From the NCBI RefSeq assembly GCF_001618685.1, contig NZ_CP014342.1, positions 1-64,000 of the forward strand: a DNA stretch of 64,000 bases, given 5' to 3'. The notes under the pieces are model-generated. The model had not been told where the DNA came from, made no database searches, and was given only the letters and a program-made list of their open reading frames with translations. This DNA comes from Geobacillus subterraneus (GTDB lineage Bacteria > Bacillota > Bacilli > Bacillales > Anoxybacillaceae). The translations under genes and the position numbers were made by a program. Position 1 is the first letter of the stretch. Each line of letters begins with the position of its first letter. Shown in pieces: positions 27,929 through 48,786 of the stretch.

Positions 27929-28035
27929 AAAAATCCTTCTCCTTTCCTGTATATAGATTAATTATAAGTTAATGGTACAATATCCATAATACACCACAAA
28001 CTATATACATGCAACATGAAGAGTTAACTTCTCAG

Positions 28036-28563
28036 TCATCCTGCACACCCTAAGCGCTGCAGCACTTCCTCCGGACGTTCGTGGATGTAGTTGACAAACC
28101 GAGTAATGGCTTGAATGATATCGTTGCGATCCTTGTGAAATACATTGGCAATCACCGTATCTTTCAGCCATTTCCATAAGCGTTCGATCGGGTTCAGCTG
28201 TGGCGAATAGGGAGGAAGGTAAATAAAGTGAAAACACTGCCCTTCTTCCCGCAAAAACTCCTTGACCATTTTGGCATGGTGAATGCGGGCGTTATCCAAC
28301 ACCAAGACCATGAGACGGTCTAAATAGCGCTCTTTGAGCATTCTCAAGAAATCCAAGAACGTCGCGGCATTGGCAGCGGTCGTTTGATGAAGCACCGTTT
28401 CGCCATCGTGGATGTTGACCGCGCCAAACAGCGATACGTGGGCATGATGGCCGAACGTCGGCACTTGTTTTTGGCGGCCGACTTCCGACCATGTGGACCG
28501 CAAGACATGGTAAGAGCGGATATGTGTTTCATCAAGGTACAACAAGACCGAATCAGGATCCAT
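28036..28563 (-). CDS. IS630 transposase, C-terminal catalytic part (ORF B)
   Basis: The DDE domain: LYLDETHIRSYHVLRSTWSE with the first aspartate, LVLDNARIHHAKMVKEFL with the second, and LPPYSPQLNPIERLWKWLK with the catalytic glutamate. All three are present. The frame lies -1 relative to the upstream helix-turn-helix ORF and overlaps its stop codon. A run of eight A just before the join, read on this strand, is a typical slippery site, so the active transposase is probably a frameshift fusion of both ORFs. Confidence 0.88.
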   Translation of the reverse strand: MDPDSVLLYLDETHIRSYHVLRSTWSEVGRQKQVPTFGHHAHVSLFGAVNIHDGETVLHQTTAANAATFLDFLRMLKERYLDRLMVLVLDNARIHHAKMVKEFLREEGQCFHFIYLPPYSPQLNPIERLWKWLKDTVIANVFHKDRNDIIQAITRFVNYIHERPEEVLQRLGCAG

Positions 28564-29093
28564 TAAGTTTTTTTTATGAAGTCGAGCTGTTTCTCAAAAT
28601 TCTTTTGTCGATCCGGATCACCTTTCGCCAATGTGTAGGTCGGCCGTGTCCACGACAGCCCTTTGCGGTGCAGGAGTTTTCGCAACGCTTCGCGGGAAAT
28701 GCAAACACCGAAGTGCTTTTCGACATAGGATTGCAGGAGTTTGGTGTTCCACGCCGAAGCGACGTCCCAGCCCAGTTCCACGGGAGTGGTGGTCAACACA
28801 AGCTGTTTGATCTCTTCCTGCTGTTCTTCGGTGAGAAACGGCTCCCGCCCGGGGGCGAAATCCCGATGAAGCAAGAGCTCCAGACCGCCTTCGTTGAACA
28901 GCGACACATAATGGGAAACGGTTTGTCGGCACACGTTGACCATGGAGGCCACCTCTTTGCCCAAATAGCCTTCCATGACCAGGCGAACCGCCATCACCCG
29001 TTGGCGAAGAAGGGTGTTTTTGATTTTCCGTTCCTGTTTGCGAAGTGTCCGAGGTGTCCATCCGTGATCGTTGGTGATTTTGAGACGTTTCAT
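28563..29093 (-). CDS. IS630 transposase, N-terminal helix-turn-helix part (ORF A)
   Basis: A 176-residue DNA-binding half of the transposase. Two helix-turn-helix units are visible (QRVMAVRLVMEGYLGKEVASMVNVCRQTVSHYVSLF, then ISREALRKLLHRKGLSW). It ends DFIKKT-stop on the slippery A8 run, which would allow a -1 shift into ORF B. It starts at ATG 29093 on the minus strand. Confidence 0.88.
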   Translation of the reverse strand: MKRLKITNDHGWTPRTLRKQERKIKNTLLRQRVMAVRLVMEGYLGKEVASMVNVCRQTVSHYVSLFNEGGLELLLHRDFAPGREPFLTEEQQEEIKQLVLTTTPVELGWDVASAWNTKLLQSYVEKHFGVCISREALRKLLHRKGLSWTRPTYTLAKGDPDRQKNFEKQLDFIKKT

Positions 29094-29230
29094 GCAGAAT
29101 TCTGCTCCTTTTCCATACTTTTCCTTAGGAGCAGTATAACCGGAGTGGGCACCACTTATACGAAGGTTAACTTTTCAATGAGTATATATATAGATGCATC
29201 GTTCGATGAGCATCCTGTCAATATTATACT

Positions 29231-29293: not shown

Positions 29294-29531
29294 TATAGAT
29301 GCAATTTGAAGCTTTACCATTTGCAGCTTTTACCGAGTATTTGATCGACTGTTGGGCGACCGAACAACGCCGCTTCCAGACCCATATATAGGTCTGTGAA
29401 ACAGGCGGTTGTTCGGTCTTCCGTCACGCCTTGGTGTGACGGAGGCAAGCCTGTGGCTTGCCTTCGACAGTCGAAAATGGACAAACCGCTTTTCCGTCAA
29501 GGATGTGTTAGACTTCTTCGTTGCATCTATA
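29294..29531 (+). repeat. Structured MITE, copy A
   Basis: A 238-bp element ending in TATAGATGCAA / TTGCATCTATA and flanked by TA. A second copy lies at 48562-48786. The core folds into a closed multi-helix RNA-like form: a closing stem TCGACTGTTG / CGACAGTCGA, a long hairpin with GACCGAACAAC / TTGTTCGGTC, a hairpin CCGTCAC / GTGACGG, and a hairpin GGCAAGCC / GGCTTGCC. Relative to copy B it has an extra 12 nt before the core. It has no plausible coding content. TIR similarity to the IS630 left end suggests mobilisation by that family. It lies 69 bp upstream of the DUF1360 gene. Confidence 0.82.
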
Positions 29532-48561: not shown

Positions 48562-48786
48562 TATAGATGCAATTTGAAGATTGACCATTTGCAGCTTTTA
48601 TCGACTGTCGGGCGACCGAACAACGCCGCTTCCAGACCCATAGATGGGTCTGTGAAGCAGGTGGTTGTTCGGTCTTCCGTCACGCCTTGGCGTGACGGGG
48701 CAAGCCTTTGGCTTGCCTTCGACAGTCGAAAATGGACAAACCGCTTTTCCGTCAAGGATCTGTTCACCTTCTTCGTTGCATCTATA
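48562..48786 (+). repeat. Structured MITE, copy B
   Basis: A 225-bp element with the same ends (TATAGATGCAA / TTGCATCTATA) and core as copy A at 29294. The closing stem is perfect here (TCGACTGTCG / CGACAGTCGA). The hairpin tip AGACCC / GGGTCT differs from copy A but still pairs. The element lies between the rpn terminator and the sugar-binding protein gene. Confidence 0.82.

Follow-up and report, generated by a model that had tools for sequence, protein, structure and literature searches.

The window analysed here, a stretch of 64,000 nucleotides from the start of the Geobacillus subterraneus contig NZ_CP014342.1, contains two copies of a short repeat, referred to below as A and B (Table 1). 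Both are non-autonomous MITEs of IS630 type, as seen from their ends and from the TA duplication present in most copies of the class. They share the ends TATAGATGCAA / TTGCATCTATA, as originally predicted. If a single mismatch is allowed, the window has 6 occurrences of this end motif, where 0.65 would be expected. Each copy is shorter than about 300 bp, is bounded by terminal inverted repeats and is non-coding; the ORFs of at least 90 amino acids that overlap the copies extend far past them. The TA flanks that had been ascribed to both copies are found at copy A, while copy B has CA and TC just beyond its 11-bp ends.

Table 1. Coordinates of the two MITE copies, their structural parts and the neighbouring IS630-family element in the window.
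Feature	Position	Strand	Description
IS630-family element	28001–29193	−	28-nt imperfect inverted ends CTATATACATGCAACATGAAGAGTTAAC / GTTAACTTTTCAATGAGTATATATATAG
IS630 transposase, DDE half (P0002)	28036–28563	−	DDE_3, 9.8e-39; NF033545, 6e-44
IS630 transposase, N-terminal HTH half (P0001)	28563–29093	−	NF033545, 4.4e-29
MITE copy A	29294–29531	+	238 bp, IS630-type ends, four-way-junction core
Copy A left terminal repeat	29294–29304	+	TATAGATGCAA
Copy A four-way-junction core	29345–29474	+	
Copy A closing-stem arms	about 29345–29356 / 29462–29474	+	
Copy A long hairpin, base arms	29358–29368 / 29408–29418	+	
Copy A two short hairpins	29420–29443; 29444–29462	+	
Copy A right terminal repeat	29521–29531	−	
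MITE copy B	48562–48786	+	225 bp, same family as copy A
Copy B left terminal repeat	48562–48572	+	
Copy B four-way-junction core	48601–48729	+	
Copy B closing-stem arms	about 48601–48611 / 48718–48729	+	
Copy B long hairpin, base arms	48614–48624 / 48664–48674	+	
Copy B two short hairpins	48677–48698; 48699–48717	+	
Copy B right terminal repeat	48776–48786	−	

IS630-type ends and the mobility of the repeat

An IS630-family element lies 100 bp upstream of copy A. Its left end closely resembles the right end of the MITE, with the stretch TATATANATGCAAC in common, and its right end is less alike. With these ends and its transposase profile matches, it is a related autonomous element and a plausible source of transposase for MITEs of the copy-A type. 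The transposase is split into two overlapping ORFs, each matching NF033545, with an A-rich run near the overlap, an arrangement that suggests programmed frameshifting. This partner was first met beside a MITE copy on an Anoxybacillus plasmid and then in the window; a search of one further genome (G040) through the end motif led to MITEs or unrelated genes in the regions read.

Elements of the IS630 family duplicate TA according to the accessible text of PMC2170065, the reference list of which includes a 1991 title naming 5'-CTAG-3' as the preferred site. Both ends could be recognised at 58 of the 84 class-1 places. In these 58 copies TA stands on both sides in 37 and on at least one side in 48; CTA is seen on one side or both in 42, of which 13 have it on both.

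By BLAST the repeat is found at five places in the window's own genome, once antisense self-matches are set aside, and in 14/14 genomes of the genus, this one included; many of them have tens of matches, counts that take in antisense halves, and one has a single, weak match. Copy A occupies the same site in G012 and G001 and is unaligned in the other 11 of the 13 genomes compared. Among nine genomes compared for copy B, it is present in G005, G003, G002 and G012 and unaligned in G011, G001 and G004. These comparisons of 13 and nine genomes yielded no clean empty site for either copy. In G009 and G010 (L296 and L297), a deletion has removed copy B and ca. 80 bp of flank, sparing ca. 13 bp at the left end of the copy. 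Class-1 elements of two genera (L081 in G010 and L170 in G023) lie in identical flanks, GGATGGTACTA / TAGTATAGACAA, reflecting either a hot spot or a very old insertion.

A four-way-junction core carried by three end systems

The interior of the repeat, approximately 135 nt in length, forms a closed four-way junction composed of a closing stem, a long hairpin and two short hairpins. Against 200 dinucleotide shuffles the RNA fold of the full copies scores z −9.2 (A) and −11.4 (B), and the DNA fold of the two cores, on either strand, z −10.0 to −12.7 against shuffles. The differences between A and B on which the original prediction had drawn are all present: the closing stem is TCGACTGTTG in A and TCGACTGTCG in B, one short hairpin reads CACGCC..GGTGTG in A and has GGCGTG in B, and the AGACCC tip is shorter in A. 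Those in the closing stem and the short hairpin are one-sided C-to-T changes leading to G-U, none of them compensatory, so that the two copies alone are incapable of showing selection for the fold.

A covariance model built from 13 class-1 cores (R1) matched 20/20 chosen genomes of the family at E ≤ 0.01, covering 9/9 genera sampled, a run from which eight genomes of one genus without a BLAST match had been left out. Under stricter filters, a scan of 398 genomes of the class gave matches in 5, and each of these belongs to the family. Several of its weaker matches constitute a second core class, a four-way junction as in class 1 with differing letters. The model of this class (R2) matched 30 of 40 family genomes, its seed source G040 being left out of the scan. 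Across the order it matched 17 of 397 genomes, including 7 that belong to six other families. A third class came from a scan of a genome collection, among the matches listed (80 of 90 stretches), with hosts that are mainly Alkalihalobacillus sp. BA299, Alkalihalobacterium elongatum and Oceanobacillus arenosus; a lone Paraburkholderia match in that scan is probably due to chance.

The models recognise one another's cores. Given 20 loci of classes 1 and 2, the class-3 model matches every one at E < 0.001, with the best match on the strand expected from a common orientation. Of 20 sources that are class-3 or unclassed, the class-1 model matches 17 at E < 1e-4, finds L331 more weakly and misses L276 and L335; these E-values are rough, as the models were only briefly calibrated. 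All 17 exemplars folded, 15 from the three end classes and two unclassed, form junctions with four branches, at z −10.0 to −15.9, as does the reverse strand in 16 of them. Their cores measure 129–145 nt, and the order of closing stem, long hairpin, hairpin and hairpin is constant (17/17). The closing stem, the arms of which are ca. 100 nt apart, is paired in every class and in the unclassed G676 core in spite of differing letters (TTTTTCGACTGTCGG, GCTTTTCTGCC, GCTTTTGGGCAG, GATTTTTGGCTCA). The long hairpin often carries the tip GACAAATNNATTTGTC, which recurs across classes along with the arms GGCAAGC and GTCACGC while other stems change; in Geobacillus-type class-1 copies the tip is altered (CAGACCCAT..ATGGGTCTG). 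Loops and linkers vary freely. The mobile element with a conserved multi-helix core that had been proposed from two copies is thus borne out, and extended by the models across genera, families and end systems.

MITEs with three kinds of ends carry the core module: IS630, IS4 and a third type. Class-1 ends are of the IS630 type (TA), and the class-2 copies of G040, with similar ends (TATATAGATTCAA), are set apart from the IS4-type MITEs on account of this resemblance. The remaining class-2 copies have ends like those of a full IS4 element, which encodes a 380-amino-acid ORF in L191 (NF033592). In the 24 IS4-type copies with both ends recognised, of 61 rows given, a perfect 9-bp duplication flanks 12, and a duplication with at least 8 matches flanks 14, against a shuffled mean of 0.64. 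Class-3 elements end in GGCTGTTTTCGTAAA / GGCTCTTTTCTCAAA; in the 57 copies considered, out of 85 distinct elements, perfect 8-bp duplications number 49 and those with at least 7 matches 53, against a shuffled mean of 2.71. The class-3 ends (GGCTSTTTTC) presumably resemble those of IS1595. An autonomous class-3 element was sought in loci L323–L402, where no core-free ends were seen, and its transposase at plasmid ends without the core, where none was found; one class-3 end had no exact match among viral contigs. Five loci on Bacillales plasmids (L414–L418) carry the class-3 ends GGCTGTTTTCGTAAA without the core.

Full-length elements were scanned for the core as well. Fourteen IS4 loci contained no full core, with one short 24-bit match, and the window's IS630 element, the one IS630 element scanned, gave no match to the class-1 core (8 candidates scored).

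The complete junction is not required, because variants lacking hairpins exist and have moved. Nine BA299 loci (L351, L359, L367, L370, L382, L395, L396, L331 and L384) lack the long hairpin and have a core of 67–77 nt, and an exact 8-bp target duplication surrounds 8 of the 9, implying that such variants transposed. In Geobacillus-type genomes, L005, L077 and L078 lack the two short hairpins.

Covariation in the stems and the question of strand

The original prediction was to fall if a larger alignment held no covariation above background. In aggregate, covariation exceeds the tree-based null in all three classes. Compensatory double changes on the same branch number 32 in class 1 against a null of 6.9 (maximum 13, 60 runs), 14 in class 2 against 1.95 (maximum 7) and 17 in class 3 against 2.16 (maximum 6, 100 runs, Watson-Crick pairs only), the trees and parsimony counts being rough and the alignments having been fitted to the models. 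The mean covariation score of the structural pairs is 5.85 in class 1 and 8.32 in class 2, compared with ca. 0 over all pairs; slid structures reach no more than 2.08 and 1.47, respectively. Individually, 1 of 49 structural pairs in class 1 and 2 of 52 in class 2 reach E < 0.05, and no pair is significant when all column pairs are tested. Pair-breaking changes show no clear depletion relative to the null (173 against 191.7 in class 1, 76 against 62.4 in class 2). Substitutions in stem and unpaired positions amount to 102/150 on internal and 286/186 on terminal branches in class 1 (Fisher 3e-7), and to 74/133 and 117/100 in class 2 (Fisher 2e-4). Stems of these classes are therefore more constrained on internal branches, as would be expected if selection acts on transposing copies. 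The contrast is slight in class 3 (52/50 internal, 72/51 terminal).

Palindromes self-correct by template switching during replication (quasipalindrome correction), and this provides the main and serious rival to a functional reading: self-templating could yield double changes without function, in which case the hairpins would be passive hitchhikers, with mutation restoring their pairing and recombination carrying the module from one MITE to another. The form of the compensatory changes agrees with it, since they are same-branch doubles and some strike several pairs together (branches 13 and 126, for example), as do the undepleted pair-breaking singles, the spread of hairpin-less variants and the free variation of loops and linkers. 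We nonetheless regard a passive core as rather unlikely. A closing stem with arms so far apart stays paired in every class and in G676 though its letters differ, hairpin order and overall length remain similar across families and three end systems, and the internal-branch constraint in classes 1 and 2 also speaks against it.

A second rival holds that the core acts as RNA under read-through transcription, as a stability element, sRNA or trap, and the original prediction had likewise allowed that it may act as RNA. The strong RNA fold and the covariation suit this, as does the position of 111 of 113 copies outside ORFs of at least 150 amino acids. Transcripts of MITEs commonly form stable stem-loops, as stated in the accessible part of a review (PMC10969869), and the MITE-like bcr repeats of the Bacillus cereus group are partly transcribed, according to the accessible text of PMC3446304. 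A structure acting on one strand should, however, favour G-U over A-C, and changes from Watson-Crick pairs across all classes comprise 140 G-U and 125 A-C events (p = 0.39), with 32 and 31 on internal branches. The modelled strand consequently lacks the G-U excess expected of an RNA. Class 3 internal branches taken alone favour the RNA side, with G-U 9 against A-C 1, contrary to a DNA reading. A raw-cell excess of G-U in class 1 (165 against 94) was considered as strand evidence and rejected, because 74 of the 165 G-U cells come from four clade-shared columns and the number of pair columns with G-U equals that with A-C (40 each); in class 2 the raw cells reverse (43 against 63).

Orientation relative to genes, counted for 113 copies with distinct flanks using mechanical ORFs, is mixed: 24 copies are flanked by tandem genes on the same strand and 43 by tandem genes on the opposite strand, a weak lean towards opposite (p = 0.03), with 18 convergent, 6 divergent, 20 at a sequence edge and 2 inside an ORF of at least 150 amino acids. 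A known RNA was sought with Rfam in the window and 9 loci at gathering and relaxed thresholds, and just generic miRNA hairpin models appeared below cut-off; a promoter or terminator role was also set aside, as no matching site lies within the two window copies. The greater decay of class 1 and 2 stems on terminal branches, moreover, makes fixed copies look unmaintained in place. On these grounds the RNA role goes unsupported, and we consider it improbable.

A host protein that recognises DNA structures or palindromes, for example one that binds junctions or hairpins, might bind the core and either aid or tame the element. This would account for the recurrent tip and arms amid changing stems, but is very doubtful given the altered tip of Geobacillus-type class-1 copies and the loss of the long hairpin from the nine BA299 loci.

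A proposed role of the core as a DNA foldback

The reading we favour, with a probability of roughly 0.45, is that the module is a strand-symmetric DNA foldback aiding the transposition of very short elements, a modified form of the structured transposition substrate raised as an alternative in the original prediction. Its function is inferred. The module would extrude as a cruciform, or as a cluster of hairpins on the lagging strand, and the folded-out closing stem would pull together the two ends of an element of 130–240 bp. The fold might thereby remove a stiff double-stranded spacer that opposes end pairing by the transposase. Short double-stranded DNA is generally stiff, and the loop-out idea leans on this property.

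A DNA foldback would explain why the core occurs in short MITEs and is absent from the full-length insertion sequences scanned, why the transposase family makes no difference to it, and why pairing persists as letters change and no strand is preferred. The uniform fold across end classes, the cross-class model matches, the target duplications, the compensatory doubles and the parity of G-U and A-C all argue for it. Against it stand the hairpin-less variants that moved, the absence of a clear depletion of pair-breaking changes, the few significant single pairs, the weak contrast between internal and terminal branches in class 3 and the class-3 internal G-U count of 9 against 1. More tentatively, the core may descend from one ancestral DNA cloverleaf cassette which was passed among at least three transposase families across Bacillales as a transferable, transposase-independent aid to transposition. 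If so, it would be a plug-in part for minimal transposons.

Bacteria harbour small, palindromic mobile DNAs such as Correia/NEMIS, RUP, ERIC and REP/REPIN, which are similar in kind to the cloverleaf MITEs. To our knowledge, each of these has one end system and forms a hairpin or a pair of hairpins, not a closed four-way junction. The bcr repeats we take to differ from the cloverleaf MITEs in ends and host range. They are comparable as high-copy, MITE-like intergenic repeats of Bacillales (bcr1–bcr3, Bacillus cereus group) with conserved secondary structure, bcr1 being about 150 bp long, according to the accessible text of PMC3446304 and PMC2267715. Stowaway-like MITEs of the IS630 family, the mechanism of which is like that of Tc1/mariner in the accessible text of PMC2170065, are likewise short and non-coding, with terminal inverted repeats, a TA duplication and a related IS630 element; here, in contrast, the interior is a conserved four-way junction, one also present in MITEs that belong to other transposase families. 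Among bacterial MITEs with foldable interiors, such as QMITE2 of Coxiella, it is described as common for the whole element to fold into stable stem-loops, whereas the accessible part of the review concerned (PMC10969869) describes no fold common to different end systems. A precedent for an active interior comes from the rice Stowaway element Ost35, the internal sequence of which enhances transposition by a mariner-like transposase (PMC3660474), a eukaryotic case for which the accessible text describes no cloverleaf core. Among the titles and abstract openings listed in a literature search that covered few subscription journals, none describes a cloverleaf-core element.

MITEs are usually seen as empty shells defined by their ends. 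A fold common to three end systems implies that selection can act on the interior in its own right, and it offers a direct test of whether internal DNA structure controls the transposition of very short elements. The shared core would also unify many genome repeats of Bacillales.

Three loci illustrate where such elements come to lie. In L039 (NZ_CP015440, 2995–3687), an annotated HNH/ENDO VII nuclease gene crosses the core of a MITE, so its annotated end may derive from the insertion. On L246 (G023:C1, 1380–1860), an IS4-type MITE with a type-2 core sits inside the left end of a class-1 MITE, and its 9-bp duplication TAAATGCAC derives from that end. Copy B and the L276 region had no match in a phage collection; a contig of a viral collection (L413, 7896–8077) carries a class-1 MITE, and the element may thus also enter phage-like DNA.
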